This document shows, in pieces, positions 17,278-64,000 of a DNA stretch of 64,000 nucleotides (positions are counted from its first letter, which is position 1; every line of letters begins with the position of its first letter). The notes under the pieces were generated by a model. That model did not search any database. It was not told the origin of the DNA and saw only the letters and a program-made list of their open reading frames with translations. Origin of the DNA: Polytrichum commune (taxonomy: Eukaryota > Streptophyta > Polytrichopsida > Polytrichales > Polytrichaceae); contig OX485806.1 of the NCBI GenBank assembly GCA_950295325.1, forward strand, positions 42,408,001 to 42,472,000. The letters are read 5' to 3'. The position numbers and the translations under genes are program-made.

Positions 17278-17279
17278 TA

Positions 17280-17593: not shown

Positions 17594-17595
17594 TA

Positions 17596-18590: not shown

Positions 18591-18598
18591 GCATGATC

Positions 18599-18945: not shown

Positions 18946-18953
18946 GCATGATC

Positions 18954-21590: not shown

Positions 21591-21594
21591 GTTG

Positions 21595-22174: not shown

Positions 22175-22179
22175 TTTAA

Positions 22180-23395: not shown

Positions 23396-23396
23396 T

Positions 23397-23587
23397 ATTG
23401 GAAAGTAAAAAAGAAAGAAAAAAACCCTATGTAGATAGATAGTACATAAGACATGTTGATTGCATACAATGGAGAGATTGGTTGGTTCCTCCCCTTATGC
23501 TTTTATTTAATTAACTAGGTTACAACCAACGTTGGACAACCCATATAGGATAATGTCAACAATGCAATCTAATACTATCTTCCAATA
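23397..23587 (-). repeat. Copia LTR, 3' copy
   Basis: Aligns with 27520-27706 over its length, for example at TGATTGCATA, CCCCTTATG, ACTAGGTTACAACCA and AATGCAA. Termini are approximate within a few bases. Confidence 0.8.
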
Positions 23588-32200: not shown

Positions 32201-32246
32201 CTAGGGGTGTATATTTCAAAAAATGAGATATTAGCCACAAATTTGT

Positions 32247-33506
32247 GTGCTACAACCCTGTTATCTCACCATGGTTTTACATAGTTATGCTACCACGGAA
32301 TTTGATGGGTTGGAAGAATCAGAGAAGGCCTTAACCCTCAAGCCGATGGTGTTACCATTAATTACCTTGGCTTTGAAGAAAGCCTGGAAGGCTAATCAGG
32401 AACAGCTGGAGCAAGCAAAGATTTTCCAATTTTTGTGTTGCATCCAAAGTGCAACCAGAGCAGCTTATGTTGAAGAGGTCATTCAATTCATCCAGATTTA
32501 CTCGTCAGAGGCTGAGACCGCTCAAGTGAAAGGCATGACCATAGACTTCTCGGCCCAGGTGGTGGCAAGGCAATTGAGGTTACCTGCCAATGCAGAGGAG
32601 TTGGATAACATGCCAGGACTGACAAAAAAACAATATGTGGAGATGTTTGAGGGGGAATTCCCACGTTCACCAAGAGGATGCCAACTTGATACAGCTAAGC
32701 CTCATTGGAAGGCTTGGCTTAAGTTTGTGAACAATTATCTCGTGTTTCGACCTCAAAAGGACATGATGACCCAGAAGATTACTGTGGCTACTTTGCATAC
32801 CTGTGAAGGAAAAAGAGTTAATTGGGCTCAGATTGTTCAGCATAAAATGGTTGAGGAAATTGCAATGCGGACGACTGAGAAAACCAAGACTATGGAACTC
32901 TACTCAGCTTTTTCCATTTCGGTCTGCTGTGAAGAATTACCGAGACCTGCGACTGCAACAGAGATTGCTTCAAGCTCGGGATTCACCCCGAGTCCATTGA
33001 CTAGCCCTGAGAAGTCTAAGCAGATGGAGAATGAGATCCTGGAGCTGCAAGCCCATTTAGAGTTTGCCCAGACTATTGCCAGTGAAAAGCAGGAACAATT
33101 GATAGCAAAAAGCGAAGCCTTGGTGCAATGCCAGATTGCAAATGTAAAGACTCTCTCTGAGCTGGCTCACGCCATGAAAGCAAACATGGACGATCTCAAG
33201 GAGAGGGAACGATTAAAGAAGGAGTTAGAGATGAGTCAAGCACAAGTAAAGATAAAAAAAAATGAGTTTCAAACCTTGAAGATGCAGTTACAAACCCAAC
33301 AACAATTGCAGCAGGCATTGAGGGAGTGTCGCGAGGAGGTTCGACAATCAAAATTAGAAAAACACCAGTTGAAGGAGAAGATGCAGTTACATCAGGAGGA
33401 TTTTGAACGTCAACAAGCTACAGACCGCAACAAAAATTTTGAGGTTCCCTCTGCTGGTTTTGCAGTCGTTTTCTCTGCAGTACCCTCTATTTTTATTTTA
33501 TTTTAA
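32247..33506 (+). CDS. Coiled-coil protein of probable transposon origin
   Basis: A long uninterrupted frame (419 residues). Residues ~1-210 form a globular region containing ARQLRLPANAEELDNMPGL, a WKAWLKFVNNYLVFRP stretch and KITVATLHTCEGKRVNWAQI. This layout resembles the putative plant transposon protein domain found in many plant repeat-encoded proteins, but that match is by general pattern only. Residues ~255-400 are rich in E, K, Q and L with heptad spacing (EILELQAHLEFAQTIASEKQ onward), a clear coiled coil. The last ~20 residues (FAVVFSAVPSIFILF) look like intron read-through, since GT follows at FE|GTTCCC (about 33442). The start at 32247 is simply the first in-frame start; an internal ATG (32271) is also possible. 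The continuation may be the open frame at 33538 that the MULE interrupts. Confidence 0.55.
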   Translation: MLQPCYLTMVLHSYATTEFDGLEESEKALTLKPMVLPLITLALKKAWKANQEQLEQAKIFQFLCCIQSATRAAYVEEVIQFIQIYSSEAETAQVKGMTIDFSAQVVARQLRLPANAEELDNMPGLTKKQYVEMFEGEFPRSPRGCQLDTAKPHWKAWLKFVNNYLVFRPQKDMMTQKITVATLHTCEGKRVNWAQIVQHKMVEEIAMRTTEKTKTMELYSAFSISVCCEELPRPATATEIASSSGFTPSPLTSPEKSKQMENEILELQAHLEFAQTIASEKQEQLIAKSEALVQCQIANVKTLSELAHAMKANMDDLKERERLKKELEMSQAQVKIKKNEFQTLKMQLQTQQQLQQALRECREEVRQSKLEKHQLKEKMQLHQEDFERQQATDRNKNFEVPSAGFAVVFSAVPSIFILF

Positions 33507-36286: not shown

Positions 36287-36486
36287 GTAAGCTATTTGCA
36301 CATGTTCTTCCCACATGTTTAATTGTATATTCACTAAATATTTGTGTCCTTCATAGGCAGAAAACACTCATACATTGTCATGCAAATAGTATTGGTGGAA
36401 CACAACAAATTTATATAGTGACATACTTGTTCCTCACTTCTTGTCCTGCATCTCACACCATCTTCTGTTCCATGTTGCCTGCGCAG
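36287..36486 (+). other. Transposase intron 3
   Basis: GTAAGC donor, GCGCAG acceptor, phase 2. Splicing joins NAQAEINTLG to MVWPDAKKNLCLWHV. Confidence 0.8.
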
Positions 36487-37645
36487 CATGGTGTGGCCGG
36501 ATGCCAAAAAAAATTTGTGTCTATGGCACGTGAGGAAGGTATGGGCAGAGATTGCAGTGAAAAAAATATCAAATGCTAAAGAACGCACCAATATTCTCCA
36601 AATGCTTGGTGACATAATGTATGGAAAAGGTTGCAAAGTTGATGATCCTGTGGACTGGGCCCTGCACCAACTCGACAAGATATCATTGTCTTGTCCACAA
36701 GCAACCTCCTTTATGCGGTACATGAATGAAGTTTGGCGACCAAAGACCACAATGTGGTGTGTTGGAGCCCGACGGATACCGCATGCAGGACAGAACACAA
36801 ATGCTGCTATTGAGTCCTACCATTCCAATTTGAAGAGTGTTCTGCATTCTGCAAAGAAGAGGTTTGTGGGCAGGCGTATGGACTGGCTTATCTATCATCT
36901 AACATGTGATGTTTTGACTCACTATTGGTACATTGTCCAATGCAAAGCATATGGATTCATACACAACAAGAAACAGGAGGGCATTGTTGCATCGGCAATT
37001 ATAAGAGCGAACGACATACCTGACATGAACGTCTTGATTTGCATGGACGAAGATGTAGCATATGTTGGGTCTGTAAACAACTGCCCGAAGGTATGGACCA
37101 TCAAATGTCCGGACTCCGAATGGGCACAATGCGACTGCCCCGTCGCCATGGAAGGCATGATTTGCAAACATACTGTCAAAGTATTCAAGATACTCCACCC
37201 TGGTGTTGACGATGGTGTCATAGTTCGTGAGGCGGGTACAAAACATGGAACACAACGCTCCACTCCAATGGCACATGCCTATTCGAGGATGTCGCAACAA
37301 ACTACTCGACTCCATGTTCCGTCTGACGTGGGGAACCCTTTCGTCGTCGAGCCTGTGGTGCAAGACAATGTTATTAATATGGACGTTGATGAAGAACACA
37401 CTACTTTACCTCATCTAGACTCTATCTTTGTTGAATCAGAGCACCCCTTACAGTTCTCATCCCAGTCTACACATGTAGAGTCTTGCACCCCCCTGCCCCT
37501 TTCCCAAGAGAGTTCTTCACCTCGAGCTCCGGCCACAACCGCAGACGACATATTCTCCTCGATTTCACGGAAGGCAGAGCAACATCCAGTTCTTCAAGAT
37601 CACTTGATTGCCGGCCTTAAGGAAATTCGTGGCAAGCAAGAGTAG

Positions 37646-38939: not shown

Positions 38940-39292
38940 CACCCTATTGTTTGTCCTCTAACTGGAGAGGTTGGACCTTGACCCTCACGTTTGGCTGCAG
39001 GTCGTCTGCGTACGCGATGTTGTTCTGCAGTATGCAGTACAACTTTGACATTCCAGTCCGTCGCGTTGTGTAGTCCTTTCTAGATGACATCAATCAATGC
39101 ATTCCTAATGACTTTCCTCGTACGTAATGCCTCTGTCCTGCTATAATTCAATGCAAATCCCTGCAAGAAGATGTACACCGTCAAAACATGTATTGAAGAA
39201 CATAACAAGACTCCTCGTTAAGCGATACACACAACTAAGCGTAGTCTCTATGACTATGCTTCAATATAATTAGAGGTCTATGTACGATTTAC

Positions 39293-39947
39293 CTCACACA
39301 GTGTGTGGGGTCTATCTCTCACGGTCTTTGTGTATTCCATAATGTTCTTCAACATGTAGAACCCGCAGGCCCAACCTGAATTTTGTTGGGGCACATTAGC
39401 TTGTATCCAGACATGCGATGAGTGTACCCCAACCCACATGTCAGTGTCATCTGTAAAGCCTCTCCATGCAGCCCACAACTTCGCGAGGCTCACACAAAAT
39501 TCTGTGTGGGAGTGGAACCCTGCGTCGACCAGGGAATCAAAATGATAAAACCCAAGCTCCCCTACTACGTAGAGGCTCCAGTGTTTTCCACATGTGTAAG
39601 GAATTAATAGAGTGTTAAATTCTTGCGAAGGGAGAGCCCCATATTTGTCGTGTATGAACCCTACATAGCCCTCTAAACTGTCATGTCCTTCCTCTGTCAA
39701 ATGCGCACGGAGTAGAGGACCAAGATAAGGACAAGTTACATAACACTTTAAATTCTCAACCTGGGGATTGAGCCACAACCCAATCCATTCCATCATGTAG
39801 TTGCTTAACTCCCCATAATTTTCAATCAATGGTTTCAAATCTTCCTCCCACTGCAGACTCAAATTATCACCACGATACGTAAATTCAAAGCTTTGGATTT
39901 TCTTCCTACCTGCGTCAGCAATGATGGTGTTCACAAGTTCTTCAAGT
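39293..39947 (-). pseudogene. C48 peptidase catalytic exon
   Basis: This exon holds the whole recognisable Ulp1 core. It is entered in phase 2 (preceding exon ...KSDG|R, then LEELVNTIIADAGRKKIQS) after CAG and leaves at GAG|GTAAAT in phase 0. The His (GKHWSLYVV), Asp (FYHFDSLVDAG), Gln (NVPQQNSG) and Cys (SGWACGFYM) follow the C48 order with normal spacing (~105 residues from His to Cys in the family is typical; here about 80). This exon itself is uninterrupted; the lesions lie in neighbouring exons. Confidence 0.85.
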
Positions 39948-42870
39948 CTGCAGAACATAAATGTACATGTCAGACTCTATTGCCAACATTTATGGACATG
40001 TAGACTTTTATGTTCTGCAGTATGAATATATTAGAATACTCACCGTCCATCAGATTTCTGCGTAGTCCTTCCGAGCACGTCATCCATGGTTGTGTCCCGC
40101 TCAGGATGGGGAGGACAAGACTTGCCTTTCACAGTTGCAGCACGCTCCACGACCCCTGGTAGAACTGTACATGTGGTGGGAGTTGAAGGGGAGCCATCCT
40201 TAGTGTTAGTCAACTCCTCACATACGTTCTTCACCACTGTATATGCGTCGTGGAACAGTGACCCCTAGTCTTCAAGCACATCTGCGGTGTTCTGCTCTTG
40301 TAGAGAACCTGGAGGGCTCATGTCGTCAATGATAATCCTGCGTGCAGGCGACACCATTGTCCTGTCACCCGGAGGCCCTATGGCAAGCGTAAGGGAAGGG
40401 GTCCTGGAAAACCACGGTCCCTTTCATAAACCCTTAGTAAGAGGTATAGCGTTGATTGGGTTACCATATTGGAAGTTTCACGATAACTCACATGGTGAAA
40501 AGGGTGTGGGACAAGACACGAACCTCATTGGGGAGTTCTGCAAATCCGATCTCAGTTGCGTTAGGGAAAGATCCTGCGTGCTAATGCGGTCGACGCCTTC
40601 AAGGTCGCAATGTATTGGGATTGCATCAAGACTCCCGAAGCTCATGGCTTCCTGTGTAAAACCCACGAATCCCATTGTTGGTTCAGGTGGTTCTCCTAGC
40701 GCCATCGCCACCTCCTCTCCCAACAACGCTCTCGTGCAGTGTACATCTTGTGCAATATCATCCCTTGCCTCTTCCTCTCCCAATCCACAATTGAATAGAC
40801 GCAATTGTGTTGACCTTACATTTTGCAAGCCCTGTACCATCTCTCCCACCCGCAACTGCACGCAATGGCTCTTCTTATGCAGATGTTCCCACGTCCACAT
40901 CTTCCCGGAAAATTAATGTAGAACATAAAACCTGCCTCACACAACATACAATTATGTTTGTACAGCATAATGAAGGCATAAAGGCAATAGATATATTATG
41001 AAAAACACACAGGCTTGGATGGACGGCATGTTTGGAAGAGAAAATATATCAGACAACACACATGAAGAACACCTGAAGAACAAGAGTAAAACATTTATGT
41101 CATGTCCTTACCTCTTCCAACTTCGCATTTCGATCGTGGGTGACGTCCCTATTGTACCACATGTCAGCAAGCTCGTCTGTACGGTGCATGCGAACCATGT
41201 CTGCAATGGCTTGTTGCGCAATCCGGCCTATGAATGACTCAATCTTCTCCATCACTGCCATTTGCCTTGATGGCTCGTATCCAAGCAAACCTGCAACGTC
41301 TGAGAATAACTGTTCAAAGCTATCTGCAGCTTTCTGCATGCCAGGAAAAACGTTCCATCCCATTAATGGGAGACTGTGAGCAACGCTTGACAAGGCGACT
41401 GTCAAGTTCGAGTCATGAGCAACATTCAACATGTACTGCTGACCCACACCTCTAGTTGGGTGAGATAGTGGACGTCTGTGCCACTCTAGAGTCCTAACCA
41501 AGTACAATAAGGCTCTCAATATATGGGGGCATTCTTGTTCCAATGAAAGAAGCTTTCTCCTTGTGTTCTCCAGAAGAACAATAGACATCTCCAGCCACTC
41601 ACCATCTGTGTGGTCCCAAGGTCCGTCCCTAAAATTTATAAGAGGCCACTTTCTAAATATCTGGTACAATGGGGACCATTTCCACTTGGACTCCTCCTCC
41701 TTCTCTTTCTCTGTGCGGTCGAATTTCAGCAGTTTGGCTTCGACATGATTTCTACAAAATCCTGGAAGTTGATTTTTGCGGCAGCAACCTTGTCATCATA
41801 CTCCCTTTGTTGGATGCGGTAATGAAGATAATCCTTAATATTCTTCAGTTCTTCATACACTTGGACATCTGAATTGGTCTTAAAACACCTAACCTGCGCT
41901 TTGACTTTATCCAAAAATTCGCTGTGATCTCCAGGAGTCTTTGTGTTCTGCATTATAAAGGCAACAATGTCCATTATGCATGGCTTTCACAAATGATTGG
42001 AATAACATAACACCCTTGTAGAACACCAATACAACAATTGTATAAGAAGAAAACATTGCAAGTTAAGAAAATACCTGGGCATTGCCATATAAATACCACT
42101 GCCCGAATGCACTTCCAATACGGTGTCCTATTGTGCCATCCTCCAATTGTTTGTGCAGGTACTGCATGCATGCATCAGGGTTGTCTAAGAGATTCTTAGG
42201 AACCCAGTGCTCGTCAATCTCCATGATGAGGATGAAGAGTCCATTGACTAGTACTGGTTCCGGAGGGGTCGCAATCTCATTCTGCGCATTGAAGAGTGTC
42301 GTGGCCTCCTTGTACGCTTGTTGTTTGCACTCCTCGCGTGAGATGGGCCGAGGTTGGACATGTTCAATCAAAGGTGTGGCTTGAAGAACATCCTTCTGCG
42401 AGAGGTGGCTCTGAAGAACATCCTTCTACGAGTGCGGGCTCTGAAGAACATGCTCGTGCAAATCCTGGTGAGCAAGCTGAGGCTGGTGCGGCTCCTGTGC
42501 ATTTACAACATGCCCGTCGGAATCTTGTGCACATGGATCAGGCTCATGCGGAACCACCGGATGAAGAACATGCTCATGCGGAACAGGCTCAGGCTCTCCA
42601 TGAAGAACCAGGTCATGTGAAGGTTGTTTGCTAGGAACATGATCATGTTTCACAATCCTAAACTCACCATGACCACTCTTCTGGGAATCCGGCGTTGCCA
42701 CTTTGGTCGCTGACTCTGACTCCTCATGCGAACTGTCTGAATTTAAATCTTCATCGCTAGACAACACAATGGTCTTCCGAGGTGGTTTCTTTACCTTCCG
42801 TCGACGCCTAGGGGATGAGGGAGACCTGGGAATTTTTGGTGTTGCCTTCACTGCAAGGTTGTAAGCCTTG

Positions 42871-49200: not shown

Positions 49201-50374
49201 AAGGTGAGCCCACAGCAAGCAGACACAGCAGAGAGCACCGCATTGAGAATACGCAGAAATGAGTGCACACAGCCGCGAGCAACACGAGCATCAACAGAAG
49301 CCTACCCTCTACCCTGCGCTACCCCAGCAAGTTCAACAAACGAGGTAGCAGATCCACATTCAAAGTGCGAGCAAGCTCGGAGAAGCTACAACCCAGATCC
49401 AAATTTGGGAACCACCCACAAGGCGAACACCGAATCAACGTGGACAAACACCGAATCACCGCGGCGAGAGAGCCAAGAACTTACTACAGCAAGAGCGCAC
49501 CAAGGAGAGAAGAAGAACCTAAGCACATATCCAAATCTAGAAGCAGACAAAGGCGGAGCATTTAGGCCAACATGCATTATCAACCTTGGGGTCTCACCCC
49601 TCTTCATAAAATGGGTGCTTATAAGCACCATAATTTTGTGTATCTACACACCTCACAAAGCTCACTCACAAAAGCTTCCTTCACCAATCTCTCCATCAAG
49701 ATGCCACTAACCCCCAATGCGGCCACCCACTATCTACTCATCAAAACACCACACAATAACACCAAAAGAAACTCCACCATACTACCACTCCCTACTACCA
49801 ATCCTCACAAACATAACCCTACACCACCAGCAAGAGCCACCTCCAAGATCGGCACGCACTCCACATACACCAATGCCGCCGCCGCCACCCACACCACACA
49901 CACAATGGTTAGAAACATCACTTGCACCTACCAAACACCTACCAACACCAAAAATCACCCAAATACCCAAAACAAACCAGTTCCAAACTTACCTCCAAGG
50001 AAAGCAAATCGCCGCTCCAAGATCCTCCCCACAAAGCAAGGTCAGCTACTCCCTTGTCCAAAAACCACCAGAACACACATAAGACATAAGCAAAACGCTG
50101 TCACACACACAAGCTCATCACCCACAACCCCAAAAACTGCCCACCCAACAAACAATCCAACCCACACAAAGCATGCAACCCCCCAAACTCAACCAAAATA
50201 CACCTCACTCCCCCATATTAGATCTGACAATGCAACCCACCACCCTAAGTATGCAGAAACCCACAAAACCAACCTCCAAAATCTACTCACACACCCAAAA
50301 ACAACAGTCCGCCATCCATCTCTCTCGCTACACACACACACTCAAATACCCTCCCAACTCACACATTCTCACAC

Positions 50375-50495
50375 TCCTCTCCCTCTCACATTGCACACCT
50401 CTCTCCCTCCCACCTCTCACACATCTCTCCCTTCCACCTCTCACACATCTCTCCACCCCACCTCTCACACCTCTCTTACCACCCTCCCAGACACA
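50375..50495 (+). promoter_or_regulatory. Pyrimidine-rich leader
   Basis: Repeats of CCTCTCACACATCTCTCC and similar words directly upstream of the ATG at 50496. Such CT-rich 5' leaders are common in plant genes. Confidence 0.4.
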
Positions 50496-51404
50496 ATGAC
50501 ACCCAGCAACAACCCAGTAGCCGCGAATCCAGAAGCAGTGCCCCGAATGCGAGGAGGATCGAACATCCAGGCAGTCCTGGCACGCCGACACCCAGGATCA
50601 GGCATCAAGCTCAGTAGTAGCAGGCTCAGGAGTAGCGCCGAAGGCAAAATGGAGGAGAGAACGAGCGGAGGGCAACTCAACACCGGCACAGGTGCGGGAG
50701 CGGGAGGCGCCAGCAAGCTCCACACCGGAATAAGGGCGAGAGCGGGAGAGGGAGGAGCCAGTAAGCTCTACACCGATACAGGTGCGGGGGCGGGAGCGGG
50801 AGGAGCCAGAGAGACCACCAACGAAGCAGCCAACGGCCGGGAAGGAGGCGGCCCCATAATCGAGGTCGGGACCGGACAACAACTCGGGAGCACCAACAGC
50901 AAGCACCGTAGTAACACCAGCACACGAAGTGCAGGCAGAAGGAGGGCACTTATTCAAGATTATAGTGATGATGAGGAAGAGATCGCCATACCACCTAGCC
51001 AACCAACATTTTTTAAGGAGAAAACCACACCTTACCATGATGCCGACATCGACATGCAACTCGACAATGTCACACCCGAGCATGGGGGAAGCTCCCTCCA
51101 CATTTCAACCTCAAACGATGAGTACTTGGCTGCCCCCCGCCAAGCCGCCATGTCGCTCGACCAAATGGACATCATCAACCTTGATGAAGCAACACCTCCC
51201 AACAACCCGCACAAAAACCCTAGGCTAGAGTTCGTGAAAGACACACAAAGCGCCAAACGTAGGAGGAGTGAAGTATTTGGTCATGCACTCAACTCCGACG
51301 CAAGCAAACTTTCAAACACGCGCACCAAAGAGGCAATTCCAAGCATTGACATTGTGTCACACATGTGGTTAGGCTTCTCAATACACGAGGCCATCACAAA
51401 GGGG
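50496..51404 (+). CDS. Unrecognised low-complexity/acidic protein
   Basis: A frame is open from 49572, but its first ~300 residues are Thr/Pro/His-rich and lie over an AC/CT-rich leader, so I place the start at the ATG at 50496 (MTPSNNPVAANPEAVPRMRG). The product is ~300 residues. It has a Gly/Ala-rich middle with three imperfect repeats of TGxGAGAGGASKL (50660-50810), a basic GRRRALIQDYSDDEEE motif suggesting nuclear location, and an acidic/polar C-terminal part (MDIINLDEATPPNNPHKNP, later SAKRRRSEVFGHALN). The frame ends at TAA (51404-51406), but coding clearly goes on one base out of frame: EIIHETRTHEEFERLGTPTN, through HFTQIPRQEK to EGFHITIRFEGNSS, stop near 51671. A single-base indel near 51400 is likely. 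It converges with the minus-strand methyltransferase-like gene. Function unknown. Confidence 0.5.
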
Positions 51405-51406
51405 TA

Positions 51407-51672
51407 AGGAAATCATCCATGAAACTCGTACCCATGAGGAATTTGAGAGACTAGGGACCCCCACAAATGAAGTCATAGAGTTCAAAACCATTAGACGTGC
51501 ATTTCCGAGAGTACCACAAATATGTTATCCAAATGAGAGGCCGGATGCGGTACCCAGCAACCACCTCCACTTCACGCAAATTCCAAGGCAAGAAAAAATG
51601 GACCCCACCACCGGACTTTCCGAGGGCTTCCACATCACCATCCGTTTCGAGGGAAACTCAAGTATGTGAGCA
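51407..51672 (+). pseudogene. Frameshifted continuation of the 50496 gene
   Basis: Open frame, +1 to the upstream one, with no ATG of its own: EEFERLGTPTNEVIEFKTIR, RAFPRVPQICYPNERPDAVP and FHITIRFEGNSSM. Continuous with the 50496 protein if one base is gained or lost near 51400. Confidence 0.45.
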
Positions 51673-52198
51673 TAGCTCGGAGAGCGGAGAGCAGAGAGCG
51701 GAGATTTTTAAATTTGTTGGAATATTTTAGGGGAAATCGTGCCTATTTCCGTGGAATTTAGTGATAGTTTGTCTTCAATTTGTCGAAAAAGCCACCCCAT
51801 TCCCGTGTAAATAATAACCGAACCTTGTTCGGTGAACCAACCGAACCTATAGGCGTGGAAGATAGTGTTTGTTATCAAACATCTTATAGTCTAGGTTTCG
51901 AATACGTTTATATTAAATTAGGGCTTACGTCATCAATTGAACATATGAGTTAAGCCTTAACACAAACATTCAAACCATTCAAAGTCACTCACAACCTTAG
52001 CATCTCTCAAGTACAACTAAAGTAGACAACCTTCAAAGTATACTCAACCCGTCCACCCAACCTATCTAGAGAATTGAAATCAAACACCAACCAACTTCAA
52101 TAAGAGATTGAATGAGGTTTGCAATAGCCACATAAAAATTGAAGAAATAAACTTATAAAGTAAAATCAATACAAACAAAATGGAGGTCCGAGGCGTAG
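51673..52198. other. Intergenic region between convergent genes
   Basis: AT-rich, no coding. Expected to hold the 3' ends of both neighbours. Confidence 0.5.
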
Positions 52199-52409
52199 TC
52201 AAGAACTAGGACTACCATGTCTATCACTATCCTCACCCTCCTCGGCCTCTATGTCTAGAAAATCCTCTATTAGTTTGTTGAAAGGTCGGATGCGACTAGG
52301 AGGTGGAGACGGAGCTTCCGCTAAAAGATTGGCAAGACTAACAGCATAGGTTGGGAGCTCGAACGTCTTGGAAGGACTCGAACTCATACATGCGTTCTCC
52401 CTTGGCGCT
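52199..52409 (-). CDS. Exon J: acidic C-terminal tail
   Basis: Entered in phase 2 after TTGGTTCAG. Contains SSSPSKTFELPTYAVSLANL, APSPPPSRIRPFNKLIEDF and a final acidic DIEAEEGEDSDRHGSPSS. No domain recognised. Confidence 0.6.
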
Positions 52410-55400
52410 CTGAACCAATAAGCAATAAGATTAGAAACAACATGACACACAAAGATGGGAAAATGACAAGAACGTAAATATGAGAAAACATAGAAATAAA
52501 ACTTACGCACAAAGAAAACCGAATGCGCGTTTGGTCATCTTCTTAGGAGGATCAAACATAGAGGTGGACGGTGTGGCATTTGAGCGAGAAGTCGCGAAGG
52601 TTGGTTTTCACGCATGGGGAGTAGTATCGCATTAAAAATCACTGGGTCACTCTCAAGGGCCACAATATGCCGCTCAATGGAACGACACGCTGTAATCGAA
52701 CCACCTACACCACATTGCCAGTCCATAATAACATCATTATTATCGGTGAGAGTAGCAAAAAGGATAGAAAAAAAAACTTGATGCTTTTCGCGAGCACCTC
52801 TCCAGGGTATCCCATCACTGCGCATTGTCTGGCTCTTCTCATCGGTGAAAGCATTCAACCATCCATCTCGCTGGAGGTAGTAACCATACTCCTGGGTGGC
52901 CTCCAGTCGCACTTTCAAAACGGAGTTAGCACGAACAAGAACCTTGATATTGAATTTGCGAGTCTGAAAAAATGACAACGATTTCATAAGAATCGGAATA
53001 AGTAAAATGAAAAACAAAACAAAAATGGACTAGGAGATGGATAGTTGCTTACCACTCCAGAGGGGTCCACCGGAGATTGGAGGTCCAAATCAACCATTCC
53101 GAACCAATCTTCGGCGACGTAGAAGTCGTAAGTGTGTGCCCAATCGAAAACCATCCTAGAAACACTTGCACTTGCACAATGGATAAGGATAAGGACGCCA
53201 TGATCATAGAGGTTAGATTTTGCAAATGCAAAAAAAACACTCATAGTAAGAATCATGGAGCTTGTTCCATTCAGGAACATCCGTGGAGATGTTGGGCACC
53301 GGCAAATTTTCGGGAATGTCCGCGAAGAGTAAATCGAGGCCCTTGTGAAATGTAGAGGAGGTGTTCACACGGGAGCAACCTTCCCCGGCCTGCAATGAAA
53401 AATTCATAAGAAAAAATAAAGAAGGAAAAACAAAAGCAAACCAAACGGAAAGGAGTCTGATGAATGCCAAAAGAAAACATACAAACCTTGGCAATGAACT
53501 CTTGAATGCGCGTATATGCCGGGAGGGGACCTCCTGCAAGGTCGGAATCGAGCATGAGTTGTACCATGTCCACATTTTTTATGAGGGCAAGCGTGGTAGG
53601 GGAATCCGAAGAGGTGGCACTCGTATCCAATAGGGCGGCCTTCCTCTTGCGAGGCAAGGAGAGTAGAGAAGTGCCACTGTGTGAAGGAGTAGCAATAGTT
53701 TGTGGACGAGATACGGAGGGGGTGATAGAGGGGGCAACTGATGGAGCAACTGATGGAGCAACGGAGGGAGTGCTAGGTGGACTCTGTGAAAGGGTGGGTG
53801 GTTGAACAAGGGTCTTTGAGGTAGACCGAGTTGATTGAGTGCCAGTATTCCTAGCTTTTCCCTTTCCCTTTGGTGCCTTGGGCGGTGGAGGAGGAAGCTC
53901 AACAATGTCGGGCTCCTCAAAGGGGACAAAGGTCACCTCGGGAGCACTACTCACAAGGCTGGAAAAAAGAGGCTTCTCTACCTCAGGCACAAATCCTCCA
54001 GAACAATCCAAGTACCATCCCCCAGCCTGCAAGTGAGAGTCCGAAAACTTGGAAACTTGCACGGGCGTATACACACAAAGATCGGAGTTGACATTGACCC
54101 AATCTACAAGGAAGGTTGGCAAGCACGAAGAAGGCAAAGCATTCTTCACAACGAGCTCACGGTGGATGAACCTGTAAAATGAAGAACATCATAAACAAAA
54201 ACGGTGGCGGGATAGAAATGAAACAAAAACTATATGAACTAAAAGAAAACTCAAAATATTACCGATAAGCGACGCGTTTGATTGCTATGGGGCCTTCCTT
54301 AAAATCCATGAGATCAAGGCCTTTGATAAATTTCAAATCTCCCTTGTCGTCAAAATAATCAGAAATGCCTTGTCCCAAAGATTCAGCCTCCAATGCTCAA
54401 CATAATTGGCCGGTTGATAAATATCCTCCGCGGAATTCCAATCGATTTCAACGGAACACTCATTTTCAAATGAAGTTATCTCATCCTCAACCCCCTTCTC
54501 CAACTATGACAACAAAGAAAATAGTAAGGGGATGGTACTTGATAACATACTCCACTCTAACTTGAACCATATATCAAAAACAAAATTCAATTTTGACAAC
54601 ATAGACCTCTAACATGGCCCCTTAAGACATTAGAAATCGGAACTTAGCTTATTAACTAGAAATCTGAAACCTTAACCTCGCCACTTATTAGGCTGAAAAT
54701 CTGAATTTAGCTTATCAACTACAAATCTGAAACCTCAAACATGGCCACTTATTAGGCTCATAATCTGAACCTTGCTTATCAACTACAAATCTGAAACCAC
54801 TAACATGGCCACTTATTAGGCTCATAATCTGAACCTTGCTTATCAACTACAAATCTGAAACCGCAAACATGGCCACTTATTTCCCTCTTAATCTGAACCT
54901 AGCTTATCAAGTACAAATCTGAAACCTTTAACTTGGCCACTTATTAGGCTCATAATCTGAACCTTGCTTATCAACTAAAAATCTGAAACCTCTAACTTGG
55001 TCAATTCTTAGGCTCATAATCTGAACCTAGCTTATTAACTACTAATCTGAAACCACTAACATGGCCACTTATTAGGCTCATAATCAAAACCTTGCTTATC
55101 AAATACAAAGCTGAAACCTTACACATGGCCCACTAAAACCCCACTATCCCCACCCTCTCGGAATCGAGAGGGTCCCCCCCCGGTCCAAATATTTAGTGGA
55201 CCTCAAAACTAGACTGAAAATCTGGAATTAGATTACATACTAGAAATCTGAACCCTCTAACATGGCCACATATTAGGCTAATAATCTGAACCTAGCTCAT
55301 TAACTACAAATCTAATACCTTAACATGGCCCACTAAAACCCCACTTACCCCACCCTCTCGGAAACGATAAGCCCCCCCCTGTCCAAATATTTTTTTGACC

Positions 55401-58089
55401 TCAAAATTAGACTGAAAATCTGGAATTAGCTTACATACTAGAAATCTGAACCCTCTAACATGGCCACTTATTTCCCTCATAATCTGAACCTTGCTTATCA
55501 ACTACAAATCTGAAACCTCTAACATGGCCACTTATTAGGCTCATCATCTGAACCTAGCTTATTAGCTACTAATCTGAAACCACTAACATGGCCACTTATT
55601 AGGCTCATAATCAAAACCTTGCTTATCAAATACAAAGCTGAAACCTTACACATGGCCCACTAAAACCCCACTTACCCCACCCTCTCGGAATCGAGAAGGT
55701 CCCCTCCCCCTGTCCAAATATTTAGTGGACCTCAAAACTAGACTGAAAATCTGGAATTAGCTTACACACTAGAAATCTGAACCCTCTAACATGGCCACAT
55801 ATTAGGCTCAAAATCTGAACCTAGCTCATTAACTACTAATCTGAAACCACTAATTTGGCCACTTATTAGGCTCATAATCCGAACCTTGCTTATCAACTAC
55901 AAATCTGAAACCACAAACATGGCCACTTATTTCCGTCATAATCTGAACCTAGCTTATCAACTACAAATCTGAAACCTCTAACTTGGCCACTTATTAGGCT
56001 CATAATCTGAACCTTGCTTATCAACTACAAATCTGAAACCTCAAACTGGCCACTTATGAGACTCATAATCTGAACCTTGCTTATCAACTAGAAGTTTGAA
56101 ACCTCAAACATGGCCACTTATACGACTCATAATCATAACTTAGCTTATATTCTAGAAAATTAAAACCTTAACCTGGCCACTTATTAGGTTGAAAATATGA
56201 ACTTAGCTTATTAACTAGAAATCTGATACATCAACCTGGCCACTTATTCGACTCATCATCTAAATTTAGCTTATCTAATTCAAATCCAAAACCTCAACAT
56301 GGCCCACTAATACCCCACTATCCCCTTGAAATCCGAAACCTTGGCATGACCCACTCGAATCCCACATGTAGAATGGAAAGGAAGAAACGGAGTCAAAATA
56401 CTGAGGATGCACCTGAGCCCAGAAAGAAGCTTTGTTGAGCCAGTTGTCGAGGACTTTCTCCCTAAGAGGGAGATCGGAGGGAAATCTATTATTATCCTTG
56501 ACCTCAGGAGGAGAGTTCCACCAACGTAGCCACTTGGCCTTGAAGTGGGAATCTACATGTGCGGTGGCCACCTTTTGAAGTTTCTCAATTGTCATATCTG
56601 TGACCAGGAAAGTGGAGAAATGACGGTCAATCTGCCACATAGAAGAAAGATAAGTAAAATAAAGATAAAACAAGCACGGCAAAATTCATAGGAGGATGAA
56701 AAACTAAACCAAAAAACAAAGATAGGAGAGACACCTCGTTGAAGAAATCATCACCGTTGTCCTTGTGGGCAACGGAAATGAACTTCTCAAAGTTCCAAGA
56801 ACGAATGGTTTTGATCAACCTATCTTGGGCTTTTGTCATAGCATTCCAAATATCGGCAGCAGTTCTCTGAGCCTCCGGAGTAGCCTCACGATATAACCTT
56901 GCCGCGGTATCAGCTGCGTTGGATATCTCCCTCTGAAACAAACAAAAATAAGGATAAGAAGCGCACATAGACGTGGGAGAAGGATGGGAGTGGAAAATGT
57001 ACACAAAATTTACCTTGTATAAGAACTTGACGAAGACATCTAATGTCAAGGGATACCAAGTAGGACTCTTCTCCATCTTGGACTCACACATCTTGTAGTC
57101 CGAAACGGAAGGGAGGTCTTTGAACTCCTCTAGCCTCATCTTTCCAAACGTGCGAATGCGAAGTAACTTGGCGGGGAGGTTGTCCTTAACATGGTCATGC
57201 TCCGTGGACCTAGACAAATAAAATGTTAGAGGAAAAAATGCGAACAAACAAAAGAAAGGATCAACAACATTAAATGTTGAACTCACCAGTTGATGTCATT
57301 CATAGCATTAAGGAAGAGAGCGGTGCAATTTCTTGCATCCACCACAATACAATCAGCCCATATATGCCAATTTTTGTCCAACGGGTGATGATTGTTGATG
57401 TGCCTCCACCAAGCTGTCAATCGATGGTTCCCTTCCCACACGAAGAACATTTTGCCAACAAAGTAAGCAAGGTCGGAGTCTCTTTGGAGTATGGCATCAA
57501 ACTCTGCATTGGCCTCCTGCCCTATTGGACTCCAGGAGGACTTGATGTCATCGGAAAGATCAAGAGGCTCATCGAGGTTGTTGTATGCTGAGACGTACAT
57601 AGCTCGGTCACCATCACGATACCCCATCACAAACTCATTCTCCAAACGAGAAACATCAACGTCGTTGATTGGCCAAACAAGAGGAAGAGTCTGCAACCGA
57701 CACAATGGAATTGAGAAACGAGACTTCCCTAGAGGCTTGAATCGAACCCGCTGAATCACGGTGTTGGAGTCTTGTTTTTGCGATCTACGAATCGTTAACT
57801 CTGCTTCAGCTGGATTCAACTCAGCAAGAGGTTTTATGCAGTCGGGTACAGCCGGAACATCAATCTACAACATAAGAGAAGCAAAGCATAAGAAAAAAAC
57901 TCTAAACCCAGAATGTGAATGAAGCATTGATACAATACAAGAACACCAGTATCATATGTATGAATCAAACGCCTCTTCTTGTGAGATGTCATCCAAAGCC
58001 GCATGGCTAGCCTCAGGAGGCGACAATATAACAACCCCATCCGCCATGTATTGCACCCGTGCTACAGGAAGAGCCAAAGACTCCGATGC
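52199..58089 (-). CDS. ParB-like domain and beta-class amino DNA methyltransferase-like protein
   Basis: Ten exons read from high to low coordinate: A 58089-~57960, B 57864-57287, C 57209-57014, D 56932-56735, E 56631-56413, F 54503-54263, G 54171-53487, H 53389-53053, I 52963-52507, J 52409-52199 (stop 52201-52199). Junctions B-J have GT-AG and consistent phases. Domains in order are ParB-like (B), helical (C-E), a mixed region (F, start of G), a Ser/Pro/Thr-rich linker (G), methyltransferase motifs IV-VIII (H) and X, I, II (I), and an acidic tail (J). ParB-methyltransferase fusions are known from phages and bacteria; a multi-exon nuclear version is unusual. The likely role is adenine-N6 or cytosine-N4 DNA methylation, or binding without catalysis. 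One-base breaks lie in F (~54364), H (A-run 53230-53237) and I (~52600). The A-to-B junction is unresolved because A ends in a stop. Either a recent pseudogene or an assembly-error-bearing gene. Confidence 0.72.
52507..52963 (-). CDS. Exon I: methyltransferase motifs X, I and II
   Basis: Reads GIPWRGAREKHQVFFSILFA (position of motif X), then NNDVIMDWQCGVGGSITACR, a D-x-x-x-G-x-G-G-S loop matching the S-adenosylmethionine-binding motif I, then HIVALESDP, whose Glu fits the ribose-binding acidic residue of motif II. Upstream residues (KVRLEATQEYGYYLQRDGWL) may belong to the target-recognition part. A one-base loss near 52600 switches the frame so that QPSRLL is read where FATSRSNATPS and MFDPPKKMTKRAFGFLC should follow. 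Motif order X-I after IV is what defines beta-class amino methyltransferases. Confidence 0.7.
53053..53389 (-). CDS. Exon H: methyltransferase motif IV region
   Basis: Reads GLDLLFADIPENLPVPN, where DIPE sits in the place of the catalytic (D/N/S)PP(Y/F/W) motif IV. It is followed by WNKLHDSYYECFF, then AFAKSNLYDHGVLILIHC, which corresponds to the strand after motif IV in this family (L..G(V/I)L.(L/V)..). FDWAHTYDFYVAEDWFGMVD and LDLQSPVDPSG complete the motif VI-VIII portion. The run of eight T on the coding strand (53230-53237) has one T too many; removing it restores a single frame and makes the exon an exact multiple of three. The aromatic residue of motif IV is absent, so activity is uncertain. 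Confidence 0.65.
53487..54171 (-). CDS. Exon G: basic and Ser/Pro/Thr-rich linker
   Basis: Starts FIHRELVVKNALPSSCLPTF and then KFSDSHLQAGGWYLDCSGGF. It passes into a disordered stretch with PPPPPKAPKGKGKARN, four consecutive SVAPSVAPS-type units (about 53705-53775) and a basic LPRKRKAALLD that could be a nuclear localisation signal. It ends EFIAK at GTTTGT, phase 0. Confidence 0.65.
54263..54503 (-). CDS. Exon F
   Basis: Starts LEKGVEDEITSFENECSVEI and has DIYQPANYVEHWRLNLWDKA. It then needs one extra base near 54364 to continue as SDYFDDKGDLKFIKGLDLMD and GPIAIKRVAYR. Not recognised as a separate domain. Donor GTAATA. Confidence 0.55.
54600..56345 (-). repeat. Satellite array inside the intron between exons E and F
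   Basis: Tandem 64 bp monomers (for example starts at 54762 and 54826) of the type AATCTGAACCTTGCTTATCA...AACATGGCCACTTATTAGGCTCAT. They are interspersed with longer units containing CCCACTAAAACCCCAC, the hairpin CCCTCTCGGAATCGAGAGGG, a C run and CCAAATATTTAGTGGACCTC. The array lies wholly within the 54504-56412 intron. Confidence 0.9.
56413..57209 (-). CDS. Exons C, D and E: helical region
   Basis: Three exons (57209-57014, 56932-56735, 56631-56413), each leaving in phase 0. C carries STEHDHVKDNLPAKLLRIRT and TFGKMRLEEFKDLPSVSDY. D carries REISNAADTAARLYREATPE, WNAMTKAQDRLIKTIRSWNF and DNGDDFFNE. E carries TIEKLQKVATAHVDSHFKAK and PLREKVLDNWLNKASFWAQ. The sequence is uninterrupted and helix-rich. 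In bacterial ParB-family proteins a helical region follows the ParB domain; here the similarity is only in position. Introns of 104-277 bp have standard ends. Confidence 0.65.
57287..57864 (-). CDS. Exon B: ParB/sulfiredoxin-like domain
   Basis: The exon (192 codons plus 2) begins IDVPAVPDCIKPLAELNPAE after TTGTAG. The core reads DVSRLENEFVMGYRDGDRAM, then PIGQEANAEFDAIL, DLAYFVGKMFFVWEGNHRLT, AWWRHINNHHP and WIWADCIVVDARN-like closing strands. The GNHRLTAW box matches the G-x-x-R-x-x-A signature of the ParB N-terminal/sulfiredoxin fold, where this loop binds a nucleotide phosphate. The preceding hydrophobic strand and following helix are as expected. No inactivating lesion is seen in this exon. 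Remote homology is by motif only. Confidence 0.65.
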
Positions 58090-58227
58090 CTGCATGCACA
58101 AAATACACCTTAAGACACTAGAAAACACAACAAAGCATAGTCTTTGCAAAATTAGAAACCCTCCAACCTGCCCCTGTAATCGTACATGACCCACCTTGTC
58201 GATTCCAAGAAAAATCCCCTTATTCAC
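57950..58227 (-). CDS. Exon A and a possible upstream micro-exon
   Basis: After CATGCAG at 58090 the frame reads SESLALPVARVQYMADGVVI and SPPEASHAALDDISQEEAFD, then a stop, so the true donor or an indel lies near 57960. Upstream, GDIVNKGIFLGIDK ends at GTGGGT (about 58195) in phase 0 and could be the preceding exon. An ATG in exon A (YMADG) could instead be the start. Confidence 0.4.
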
Positions 58228-58299
58228 TATATCTCCAAATCAAAATCCACTATTGACAAGAAAGAACTCAACTTGGGCCCCTCACACCCACCCTTTGGT

Positions 58300-61200
58300 T
58301 TCCGAGAGGGTCTAAACCTTGGACTCATAATCTGATCTTAACGTATATACTAGAAATCTGAACCCTCTAACATGGCCACATATTACGCTCAAAATCTGGA
58401 CCTAGCTCATTAACAACAAATCTGAAACCACTAACATGGCCACTTATTAGGCTCATAATCAAAACCTTGCTTATCAAATACAAAGCTGAAACCCTACACA
58501 TGGCCCACTAAGACCCCACTATCCCCACCCTCTCAGAATCGAGAGGGTCCCCCCCCCTTGGCCAAATATTTAATGGACCTCAAAAGTAGACTGAAAATCT
58601 GGAATTAGCTTACATACTAGAAATCTGAACCCTCTAACATGGCCACATATTAGGCTCAAAATCTGAACCTAGCTCATTAACTACAAATCTGATACCTTAA
58701 CATGGCCCACTAAAACCCCACTTACCCCACCCTCTCGGAAACGAGAGCCCCCCCCCTTGTCCAAATATTTAGTGGACCTCAAAACTAGACTGAAAATCTG
58801 ATCTTAACGTATATACTAGAAATCTGAACCCTCTAACATGGCCACATATTAGGCTCAAAATCTGAACCTAGCTCATTAACTACAAATCTGAAACCACTAA
58901 CATGGCCACTTATTAGGCTCATAATCAAAACCTTGCTTATCAAATACAAAGCTGAAACCTTATACATGGCCCACTAAAACCCCACTATCCCCACCCTCTC
59001 GGAATCGAGAGGGTCCCCCCCCCTGTCCAAATATTTAGTGGACCTCAAAACTAGACTGAAAATCTAGAATAAACTTACATACTAGAAATCTAAACCCTCA
59101 AAGTGGCCATATATTAGGCTAATAATCTGAACCTAGCTCATTAACTACAAATCTGATACCTTAACATGGCCCACTAAAACACCACTTACCCCACCCTCTC
59201 GGAAACGAGAGGCCTTTCCCCCTTGTCCAAATATTTAGTCAACCTCAAAATTAGACTGAAAATATGGAATTAGCTTACATATTAGAAATTTGAACCCTCT
59301 AACATGGCCACATATTAGGCTAATAATCTGAACCTAGCTCATTAACTACAAATCAGATACCTTAACATGGCCCACTAAAACCCCACTTACCCAACCCTCT
59401 CGGAAACGAGAGGCCCCCCCCTGTCCAAATATTTTTTTGACCTCAAAATTAGACTGAAAATTTGGAATTAGCTTACATACTAGAAATCTGAACCCTCTAA
59501 CATGGCCACATATTAGGCTCAAAATCTGAACCTAGCTTATCAACTACAAATCTGAAACCTCTCACTTGGCCACTTATTAGGCTCATAATCTGAACCTAGC
59601 TCATTAACTACAAATCTGAAACCACTAACATGGCCACTTATTAGGCTCATAATCAAAACCTTGCTTATCAAATACAAAGCTGAAACCTTACACATGGCCC
59701 GCTAAAACCCCACTTACCCCACCCTCTCGGAATCGAGAGGGTCCCCCCCCTGTCCAAATATTTATTGGACCTCAAAATTAGATTGAAAATATGGAATTAG
59801 CTTACATACTAGAAATCTGAACCCTCTAACATGGCCACATATTAGGCTCAAAATCTGAACCTAGTTCATTAAATACAAATCTGATACCTTAACATGGCGC
59901 ACTAAAACCCCACTTGCCCCACCCTCTCGGAAACGAGAGGCCCCCCCCACCTTGTCCAAATATTTAGTGGACCTCAAAACTAGATTGAAAATCTGGAATT
60001 AGCTTACACACTAGAAATCTGAACCCTCTAACATGGCCACATATTAGGCTCAAAATCTGAACCTAGCTCATTAACTACAAATATGAAACCACTAACATGG
60101 CCACTTATTAGGCTCATAATCAAAACCTTGCTTATCAAATACAGAGCTGAAACCTTACACATGGCCCACTAAGACTCCACTATCCCCACTCTCTCGGAAT
60201 CGAGAGGGTCCCCCCCCCTGTCCAAATATTTATTGGACCTCAAAACTAGACTGAAAATTTGGAATTAGATTACATACTAGAAATCTGAACCCTCTAACAT
60301 GGCCACAGATTAGGCTCAAAATCTGAACCTAGCTTATCAACTACAAATCTGAAACCTCTCACTTGGCCACTTATTAGGCTCATAATTTGAACCTAACTCA
60401 TTAACTACAAATCTGAAACCACTAACATGGCCACTTATTAGGCTCATAATCAAAACCTTGCTTATCAAATACAAAACTGAAACCTTACACATGGCCCACT
60501 AAAACCCCACTATCCCCGCCCTCTCGGAATCGAGAGGGTCCCCCCCCTGTCCAAATATTTATTGGACCTCAAAACTAGACTGAAAATCTGGAATTAGCTT
60601 ACACACTAGAAATTTGAACCCTCTAACTTGGCCACAGATTAGGCTCGAAATCTGAACCTAGCTTATCAAATACAAATCTGAAACCTCTCACTTGGCCACT
60701 TATTAGGCTCATAATCTGAACCTTGCTTATCAACTACAAATCTGAAACCTCTAACATGGCCATTTATTAGGCTCATAATCTGAACCTTGCTTATCAACTA
60801 CAAATCTGAAACCGCAAACATGGCCACTTATTTAAACAAAATGCAGGCTTAAACATCAAACCTGTCTATGCCGAACTTCTCCGAACTATGGGATTGTGGA
60901 TGCTCCTTCCACATTCGACACTACACCGCAAGGTTGTCGGCAAGGGTTTCCTCCTCTCTTCTCTCTCCGAACGACAAACTAGGTTAGCCACAATGGTTCC
61001 TTGGTGTCGGCTAGGGTGGACTACCTCCATCTATTATCCATACTAGAAATTTGAACCCTCTAACATGGCCACATATTAGGCTCAAAATTTGAACCTAGCT
61101 TATCAACTACAAATCTGAAACCTCTCACTTGGCCACTTATTAGGCTCATAATCTGAACCTAGCTCATTAACTACAAATCTGAAACCACTAACATGGCCAC

Positions 61201-62318
61201 TTATTAGGCTCATAATCAAAACCTTGCTTATCAAATACAAAGCTGAAACCTCTCACTTGGCCACTTATTAGGCTCATAATCAAAACCTTGCTTATCAAAT
61301 ACAAAGCTGAAACCTTACACATGGCCCGCTAAAACCCCACTTACCCCACCCTCTCGGAATCGAGAGGGTCCCCCCCCTGTCCAAATATTTAGTGGACCTC
61401 AAAATAAGACTGAAAATATGGAATTAGCTTACATACTAGAAATTTGAACCCTCTAACATGGCCACATATTAGGCTCAAAATCTGAACCTAGTTCATTAAC
61501 TACAAATTTGATACCTTAACATGGCCCAATAAAACACCACTTGCCCCACCCCCTCGGAAACGAGAGCCCCCCCCCTTGTCCAAATATTTAGTGGACCTCA
61601 AAATTAGACTGAAAATATGGAATTAGATTACATACTAGAAATTTGAACCCTCTAACATGGCCACATATTAGGCTCAAAATCTGAACCTAGCTCATTAACT
61701 ACAAATCTGAAACCACTAACATGGCCACTTATTAGGCTCATAATCAAAACCTTGCTTATCAAATACAAAGCTGAAACCTTACACATGGCCCACTGAAACC
61801 CCACTATCCCCACCCTCTCGGAATCGAGAGCGTCCCCCCCCCCTTGGCCAAACATTTAGTGGACCTCAAAACTAGACTAAAAATCTGGAATTAGATTACA
61901 TACTAGAAATCTGAACCCTCTAACATGGCCACAGATTAGGCTCATAATCTGAACCTTGCTTATCAACTACAAATCTGAAACCTCTAACATGGCCACTTAT
62001 TAGGCTCATAATCTGAACCTTGCTTATCAACTACAAATCTGAAACCTCTAACTTGGCCACTTATTAGGCTCATAATCTGAACCTTGCTTATCAACTACAA
62101 CTCTGAAACCGCAAACATGGCCACTTCTTTTCCTCATAATCTGAACCTAGCTTATCAACTACAAATCTGAAACCTCTAACTTGGCCACTTATTAGGCTCA
62201 TAATCTGAACCTTGCTTATCAACTACAAATCTGAAACCGCAAACTGGCCACTTATGAAACTCATAATCTGAACCTTGCTTATCAACTAGAAGTCTGAAAC
62301 CTCAAACATGGCCACTTA
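58300..62318 (-). repeat. Main satellite array
   Basis: About 4 kb of the same 64 bp-monomer family and ~200-330 bp composite units as at 54600-56345. It has some ten copies of the CCCTCTCGGAA(T/A)CGAGAGG hairpin and C-run block (58530, 58730, 58992, 59192, 59396, 59722, 59923, 60192, 60522, 61347, 61552, 61812, approximate). A 205 bp non-satellite segment (60831-61035) sits inside. It lies between exon A and the presumed 5' exon at 62854-63219, so it may also be intronic. Confidence 0.9.
60831..61035 (+). repeat. 205 bp duplicated segment, copy 1
   Basis: Nearly identical to 62319-62523 (a few substitutions, such as CATTCGACAC against CATTCCACAC). Contains TTTAAACAAAATGCAGG and AAGGGTTTCCTCCTC. 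Not part of the satellite unit. Confidence 0.9.
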
Positions 62319-62523
62319 TTTAAACAAAATGCAGGCTTAAACATCAAACCTGTCTATGCCGAACTTCTCCGAACTATGGGATTGTGGATGCTCCTTCCAC
62401 ATTCCACACTACACCGCAAGGTTGTCGGCAAGGGTTTCCTCCTCTCTTCTCTCTCCGAACGACAAACTAGGTTAGCCGCAATGGTTCCTTGGTGTCGGCT
62501 AGGGTGGACTACCTCCATCTATT
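62319..62523 (+). repeat. 205 bp duplicated segment, copy 2
   Basis: Partner of 60831-61035, at the outer edge of the satellite array. The unique sequence continues after it, so this is probably the source copy. Confidence 0.9.
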
Positions 62524-62853
62524 TTCGAACTCTTCTATTTCCTAGGTACCTTGCCCCAAAATATAATGGGCCGAAAGCCTAGTTGCTATGGGCCATGTTT
62601 GGGAGGTGGCGGCCCCGCACAACTTCGTGCTTAGCCAATACCCTATTCGTGGTGCATAATTGTTGACCCTCTCGTTTCCGAGAGGGTTCGGTTGTATATC
62701 CCCATCTAACCAACTTTAACAAAAAAATAGCTTTCAACATTCAACGTGTTGGTCATGAAGAATCACATTACATAACTCAATATCAAATTCCATCTTGTAA
62801 ATTACCTAAATGTATATCTGAGCCTAGTGCATAATACGCTAAACCAAACTTAC

Positions 62854-63219: not shown

Positions 63220-63521
63220 TACTCGTCTCTCTCCTATCCTCTTCTATTAGGGCATCGCACTCATATAATAACTCGTTCCTTTGCTTGTATTGTTCTTTAT
63301 ATTGCCAGTGCTTGAGGGTTAGGGTTTCCCTCTTTTTGGCAGCCGTCCCTTTTTTTCCCTTTTTGGCATCCTCCCCCTACTCCTTTTTTATATACATTAG
63401 TTCCTCAAATTCTGTTCCTTTGGTGATGCACATGGTGACATCACAACGTTTGTCTTCACCATTCTTCTTCCTTATAAATCTTTGCATCTTTGTGCATTTA
63501 CGTTTCTGTTTTTTTGCCTTC
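63220..63521 (+). promoter_or_regulatory. Presumed bidirectional promoter and CT-rich leader
   Basis: About 300 bp between the divergent starts at 63219 (-) and 63522 (+). Its right part is T/C-rich (63325-63390) with a TTTTTTATATAC word at 63384-63395, a possible TATA-type element for the + gene. Confidence 0.4.
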
Positions 63522-64000
63522 ATGGCTTCCAGCTCAATGGCCGAACTTCGTTCCAATGCCAACGATGTCCTTATTCTCTTCCCCATTGGTGCACAGGGTA
63601 TTGTTGTTGTCTCGGAGCTTCATCTTAGCATTAGGTTCTCTCTTCAAGTTAATACAATATGGGTAGATCGTGAGATCTTCAATGATACTGGATTGCTCGT
63701 GCATACATTCCATGAGCCCTCCAAGGTAACTGACAATGGCAATGTAGTGTGGGAGCTTGGCGCAGGAAAGTAAAGGGTTTGGGGCTGGCCAGATTCTCAG
63801 ATGGGAGTGTCAACAGAACTCCATGCTCCTCTTCGATCTTCCACTGCTGACTTTAGCACACCTCTGGTAGTAAGTGTCAAGACCGAGCCTGACATAGACA
63901 ACGTTGTAGACTTGTCTGATTCTTCGACTGAAGATGTATCTATGAGGAAGGCTGATGTTCATGATTCCCCTCCTTTGTTTCCCTCTGATTCCTTTGTAAC
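63522..64000 (+). CDS. Unrecognised gene, 5' part, cut by the window end
   Basis: The ATG at 63522 opens MASSSMAELRSNANDVLILF, followed by QGIVVVSELHLSIRFSLQVN, IWVDREIFNDTGLLVHTFHE and GNVVWELGAGK. A TAA at 63771-63773 interrupts, but the same frame goes straight on with RVWGWPDSQMGVSTELHAPL, VVSVKTEPDIDNVVDLSDSS and SPPLFPSDSFV to the end of the window. So either the TAA is a nonsense change or the protein ends there. The beta-strand-rich N-terminal part suggests a folded domain; I do not recognise it. It is divergent from the minus-strand exon at 62854-63219. Confidence 0.5.

Follow-up and report, generated by a model that had tools for sequence, protein, structure and literature searches.

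What is a spliced gene that joins a ParB-type domain to an amino methyltransferase doing in a moss nuclear genome, and what might its product recognise? We addressed this question for a 64,000-nucleotide stretch of Polytrichum commune DNA (assembly GCA_950295325.1, contig OX485806.1, positions 42,408,001 to 42,472,000 of the forward strand; hereafter the window), in which a first-pass annotation had placed such a gene at 52199..58089 and suggested that a mobile element might use it. The gene is indeed there, but the span is only part of a larger transposable element. We think it probable, at roughly 0.72, that this element is a decaying, multi-copy Mutator-like transposon with two divergent genes, one for a transposase and one for an accessory protein with ParB, helical and methyltransferase parts, and that the ParB part reads palindromes of the element as a parS-like site. 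This reading is built on observed features: the genes that the element carries and their divergent layout, target duplications in two relatives, many copies in the genome, a ParB exon held under purifying selection, and a conserved, arrayed palindrome.

Judging from its sequence, the transposable element in the window is a decaying copy, about 16-17 kb long, that extends from about 51651 past the window end to near 68.0 kb in extended coordinates. Its transposase and ParB-methyltransferase genes diverge on opposite strands, and the same layout was seen in a distant relative on contig C1 (C numbers denote contigs), whose transposase is 28.7, 51.5 and 42.5% identical to that of the window over three parts. 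A sister copy on another chromosome (C7), 94-96% identical to the window over the four longest matches, measures 16,940 bp, has the ends GGGAAACTCAAGTATGTGAGC and GGACGACACTTGTATGTGAGC and is flanked by a perfect 10-bp target duplication, GGTAAGGCGT. The C1 element measures 15,167 bp; its ends are inverted as well, and its 10-bp duplication, TCTGTTACCT, is likewise perfect; in the C4 element, 8 of the 10 positions of the target duplication agree. These copies are not free of stops either: the ParB exon of the C1 element has one, and the aligned parts of the C7 copy show three that the window lacks, two of them in the accessory gene and the third in the transposase. A further open stretch, kinase-like by eye only, lies between the transposase and ParB-methyltransferase genes of the C1 element (9067-9983; L006-L010).

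Mutator-like transposons generate target duplications of 8-11 bp and encode a MULE transposase with DDE and SWIM. The perfect duplications at C1 and C7 fall within this range, and, because the C7 copy combines inverted ends with a perfect 10-bp duplication, the sequence evidence points to an element of the Mutator-like type. The likeness to Mutator-like elements (MULEs) extends to the inverted repeats and to the C-terminal tail of the transposase, which by eye has the SWIM-like form CxCx(n)CxH, whereas the length of the element and the lack of a Pfam MULE, SWIM or other transposase match in the transposase set it apart. No inverted repeat spanning the gene was found within the window. A perfect 10-bp direct repeat, CCACATCACC (51630 and 68013), was considered as the target duplication of the window copy and dropped, because a 10-mer was shared in 694 of 20,000 random segment-pair draws and because comparison with the C7 copy sets the terminus at 51651 instead; the same comparison disclosed no other target duplication for the window copy.

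The ParB exon has at least 150 matches across the genome (1239 candidates, of which 150 were scored and all 150 matched at E<1e-71), spread over contigs C1-C7 with one on C61. Together with the C1 and C7 target duplications and the transposase in the same unit, these matches support the suggested use by a mobile element. They also leave next to no room for the view that this is a lone host gene of bacterial ancestry that has been domesticated and has no tie to a transposon. The introns and the open ParB exon would suit such a gene, but as a general account it is refuted by the copy number and the target duplications.

The accessory gene runs on the minus strand from 57864 to 52199 and comprises nine exons, in which a ParB-fold exon is followed by a helical middle and an amino-methyltransferase domain in beta order (Table 1). 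The exons, the GNHRLTAW box and the C-terminal motif I block were found at the positions first assigned to them, on the minus strand. From E2 to E10 the model has AG acceptors, GT donors and phase-matched joints, and E10 closes with a stop. The intron between E2 and E3 was also checked in 28 related copies, in which it is 75-78 bp long; its donor is GT in 25, GC in two and neither in one, and its acceptor, located with a pattern starting with AG, was present in all 28. These data agree with the introns annotated at the outset. The first exon of the proposed ten-exon model stays putative; it reaches a stop before any GT donor. The exon chain is phase-consistent at its joints but not within its exons, since a single frame change breaks each of E6, E8 and E9, and the window copy is therefore not an intact gene. 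The C7 sister copy is open across all three break points, P0130 across that in E8 and P0121-P0124 across that in E9.

Table 1. Features of the window element (window coordinates; extended coordinates where indicated)
Feature	Position	Strand	Remark
Terminal inverted repeat, ParB-methyltransferase end, GGGAAACTCAAGTATGTGAGC...	51651..51700		same terminus in C7 copy
E10, C-terminal tail ending in stop	52199..52409	-	C7 copy 97% identical
E9, motif X (WRGAREK), motif I (DWQCGVGGS), acidic LESD	52507..52963	-	frame-broken in window copy
E8, motif IV-like DIPE and VI-VIII region	53053..53389	-	frame break within window copy
E7, GGWYLD block and Pro/Ser-rich linker	53487..54171	-	
E6	54263..54503	-	frame break within window copy
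Tandem array inside intron 5	54605..56304		palindrome-like sites at 55152, 55352 and 55679, one perfect
E5, helical region	56413..56631	-	
E4, helical region	56735..56932	-	
E3	57014..57209	-	
E2, ParB-fold exon with GNHRLTAW box	57287..57864	-	
Putative E1	57955..58089	-	stop precedes any GT donor
Palindrome-like site just upstream of ParB-methyltransferase gene	58290..58311		7/9 arm pairs
Tandem array between the divergent genes	58322..62320		palindromes ACCCTCTCG-N4-CGAGAGGGT
Perfect palindrome outside array, transposase side	62666..62687		same site at C7 6440513
Transposase gene, 5' part	63504..64000	+	has stops; reaches 67023 in extended coordinates (window and L016)

The ParB exon belongs to a sizeable family. 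Relatives were recovered from 139 of 182 scored database candidates at E<=10, with identities of 46-91% in the best 120 of these 139, and E9, the exon of motifs X and I, had relatives among 65 of 71 scored candidates. Single-exon queries picked up database relatives and the spliced protein as a whole did not, probably because the relatives are stored as exon-sized pieces, mostly on short contigs. A G-x-x-R type nucleotide box is a mark of the ParB/sulfiredoxin (ParB-CTPase) fold. The family has such a box, with GNHR in 88 and GNH in 100 of the 120 relatives, several of which are truncated pieces, and its residues N146 and H147 are invariant across a 56-row alignment. The assignment of the ParB exon to this fold held up when the fold itself was examined, in support of the original annotation. 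Pfam ParBc matched neither the ParB exon nor appeared among the families listed for the 56 aligned rows, and a Pfam search with seven single-exon pieces yielded neither a methyltransferase nor a ParB match. No sequences were found when profiles A1 and A2 were run against PDB, and the ParB exon matched seven of 50,697 phage records, the best at E 1 and none below 1. A single-sequence structure prediction of the ParB exon was discarded (pLDDT, a predicted local confidence score, 37.5).

We then compared nonsynonymous and synonymous substitution rates (dN/dS) in the ParB exon of 28 of the 30 fetched copies, L036 and L040 being left out because they failed the orientation test. For the window copy, the ratio was 0.5-3.9 against its 12 nearest copies, with few substitutions, and 0.13-0.35 against 15 more distant ones; over 286 pairs with dS of 0.05-1.5 the median was 0.25. 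From the low values between subfamilies and the higher ones among the nearest copies, we infer that the ParB exon is under purifying selection between jumps and decays once inserted.

The methyltransferase assignment was examined next. In all four libraries searched with the E8-E9 protein, the lowest E-value belonged to a methyltransferase and the match fell at motif I, although each match is weak taken singly (PHROG, 0.0021; NCBIfam CcrM, 0.011; PDB DpnA, 0.038; phage DNA methylase, 0.007). Neither ParBc nor N6_N4_Mtase detected the window copy, whose E8-E9 protein had no Pfam match, whereas homologues on C1 (L005, 32.5 bits) and C4 (L004, 35.3 bits) exceeded the PF01555 N6_N4_Mtase cut-off of 26.7, covering model positions 1-216 in C1 and 163-216 in the best C4 stretch. 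The window protein aligned collinearly with L005 (E 2e-14, 23% identity over 472 residues), and a 50-kb C1 region contained the ParB exon, E3, E4-E5 and the methyltransferase part in the same order (tblastn, E 1e-18 to 5e-12). In the C1 alignment, motif IV precedes motifs X and I, as in the beta order. The C1 match to PF01555 and the collinear window alignment together bear out an amino-methyltransferase domain of this permuted type. N6_N4_Mtase also scored over the cut-off at L001, L002 and L003, on the small contigs C10 and C12, which are perhaps bacterial contaminants.

Motif IV of known enzymes follows the consensus D/S-P-P-Y/F/W, and its aromatic residue stacks on the flipped base. We read this motif in five sequences, leaving out subfamilies at 60-86% identity, and found DIPE in the window, C7 and P0130, DIPD in C4 and DIPY in C1. 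The catalytic D/S-P-P-Y/F/W motif is accordingly absent from the window subfamily, and methylation activity of this subfamily is doubtful on sequence grounds because the aromatic residue is replaced. Its loss in the window, C7, C4 and P0130 is what would be expected if the domain were catalytically dead and the protein only a DNA-binding scaffold or repressor. We regard this alternative as possible, though we lean against it, since C1 retains DIPY and passes PF01555, the GxG of the S-adenosylmethionine (SAM) loop is retained, and motif IV was read in those five sequences only. In many E9 relatives (alignment A2), an intron apparently follows DWQCGVG, and the window subfamily does not have it; among the 65 relatives, 39 fit the pattern continuing past GVG, four have an unbroken GVGGS like the window and 22 fit neither. 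This difference seems to reflect intron gain or loss inside the transposon gene.

What the ParB part may recognise is suggested by the palindromes. The pattern CCTCTCG-N4-CGAGAGG, with up to two mismatches, occurs at 17 window sites, all within 55154-62685, against a shuffled expectation of 0.04, and the 87.6 kb around the window element contain none. The C7 element has 22 such sites, with none in its 1540 bp of fetched flank, and its intron array has four palindrome sites. Within 1.5 kb upstream of the ParB exon, this site was present in 27 of 28 oriented copies, L023 being the one without it. We compared 176 sites with full flanks, of 184 in 27 copies, representing three subfamilies. The 24-bp palindrome consensus agrees at 20-22 of 24 positions among the subfamilies, 14 of which the search pattern itself fixes, compared with 11-25 of 45 positions in ungapped 45-bp flanks. 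Not covered by the pattern are the three outer pairs and the inner one. In the two outgroup subfamilies (89 and 37 sites), symmetry at these pairs holds for 68-100% of sites; in the window subfamily (58 sites), the outer pairs are symmetric in 2, 55 and 53% of sites and the inner pair in 0%. The commonest site spacing also differs by subfamily (173-266, 105-107/138-139 and 94-96/107-108 bp).

That the palindromes lack a function, whether as by-products of tandem duplication that travel with the element or as sequences that form an RNA or DNA hairpin, appears to us quite unlikely. The array units are tandem duplicates, and their sites are non-independent; moreover, flanks may retain an old likeness across subfamilies, as 24-30 of 47-52 gapped columns agree, a figure without a random control. 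Nevertheless, the subfamilies share the palindrome much more closely than the DNA on either side of it, and they space their sites differently.

An unrelated palindrome occupies the same place in the more distant elements. The C1 and C4 elements have no CCTCTCG-type site and instead carry TTGTGCGC-N2-GCGCACAA, in 7 and 6 copies, respectively, arrayed with a period of about 104 bp between the same two genes. Intergenic palindromes with 9-bp arms number six in C1, three in C4 and four in the window (shuffled means, 0.09-0.13), and those with 10-bp arms number five, three and zero; tandem copies are not independent sites in these counts. Covariation within the C1 and C4 palindromes is weak and rests on one pair.

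The arrangement and conservation of the palindromes lead us to propose that they are a parS-like site for the ParB part, which probably acts as a dimer. In bacterial ParB-parS, too, a dimeric ParB-type protein has iterated palindromes beside it, and the proposal follows from this likeness. The locus shares with that system (ParABS) the ParB fold and iterated palindromes near the gene. Palindrome recognition would hold the accessory protein on the DNA of its own element, where the methyltransferase domain could modify nearby bases (N6-adenine or N4-cytosine) or, where the catalytic motif is lost, contribute no more than DNA or cofactor binding. The outcome would be self-recognition of the element, which might act in the control of the two promoters, in protection from silencing or in picking out element DNA for transposition. 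Both the altered motif IV and the duplicate origin of the array units weigh against this reading. The palindromes could, alternatively, be sites for the transposase or a host factor, with the ParB-methyltransferase protein unrelated to them. Transposases of other superfamilies bind subterminal repeats, and the arrays lie between both genes, with one site on the transposase side; sites are also found in the intron of the ParB-methyltransferase gene, however, and long dyad symmetry fits a dimeric ParB-type reader. We consider this alternative unlikely, though a serious competitor. More tentatively, the parS-like reading may be extended to eukaryotic transposons in general, which would carry a ParB-parS-like module fused to a base methyltransferase (or a dead scaffold). 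The ParB domain would read element-specific arrays of 24-bp palindromes and direct N6-adenine or N4-cytosine methylation to the element, setting it apart from host DNA, and element lineages would have exchanged palindrome sequences as their proteins diverged, which is what specific pairs of protein and site would do.

Comparable proteins have been described elsewhere. The brown algal Sola transposon Sola1-1_Ec32 of Ectocarpus encodes an accessory protein of 1104 residues with ParB and N4/N6 methyltransferase domains (PMC12477816). According to the parts of that paper describing it, the resemblance lies in a single protein, of similar length, that has a ParB-like and an amino-methyltransferase domain and whose gene runs opposite to the transposase strand inside a giant DNA transposon; the host lineage and the transposon superfamily differ, the likeness is one of description rather than of sequence, and the description there mentions no palindrome array. 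The same source cites green and red algal transposons with ParB-methyltransferase genes (Iyer 2011; Petroll 2025), in red algae giant EnSpm elements, and these, as presented there, have the same domain pair. Phage fusions of ParB with an N6_N4 methyltransferase, as outlined in PMC12704722, likewise unite a ParB fold and PF01555 in one polypeptide but are prokaryotic; a protein of Mycobacterium phage Vincenzo, annotated as a DNA methylase, ranked sixth in the viral fold library. No land-plant or Mutator-like case of a ParB-methyltransferase was found among the papers listed in open-licence literature listings, and no palindrome arrays turned up in the literature on ParB-methyltransferases, in which no search was aimed at palindromes. 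Earlier publications thus already contain both the pairing of these domains and the notion of self-marking; what is new here is the palindromes.

The window also contains other transposon-like sequences. A decayed relative of the element's transposase was detected in tblastn pieces on the minus strand at 15119-23464 (E down to 4e-114), with no adjoining ParB-methyltransferase match, marking a second, older element. Inverted repeats of 34 bp at 33701 and 46058 bracket a plus-strand open frame with a SWIM-like CxCx(n)CxH tail and no Pfam match (36422-37645) and a minus-strand Ulp1-type Peptidase_C48 match over the cut-off (39278-39976, E 2.5e-5); this region may be a further Mutator-like element, one that has captured a protease. 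At 32235-33506 on the plus strand, there is a sub-threshold match to PF20167, 'putative plant transposon protein' (E 7e-4). Long plus-strand open frames (613 and 98 residues) with low-complexity repeats at 49566-51669 end beside the left end of the transposon.

If the palindromes are the sites of the ParB protein, the element would be a transposon with built-in recognition of its own DNA, in which bacterial segregation logic is joined to self-methylation in a nucleus. The defined palindromes turn the role of ParB-methyltransferase accessory proteins, in algal and plant-type transposons, into a testable question. Given their high copy number, such proteins could shape the patterns of N6-methyladenine (6mA) or N4-methylcytosine (4mC) in host genomes.

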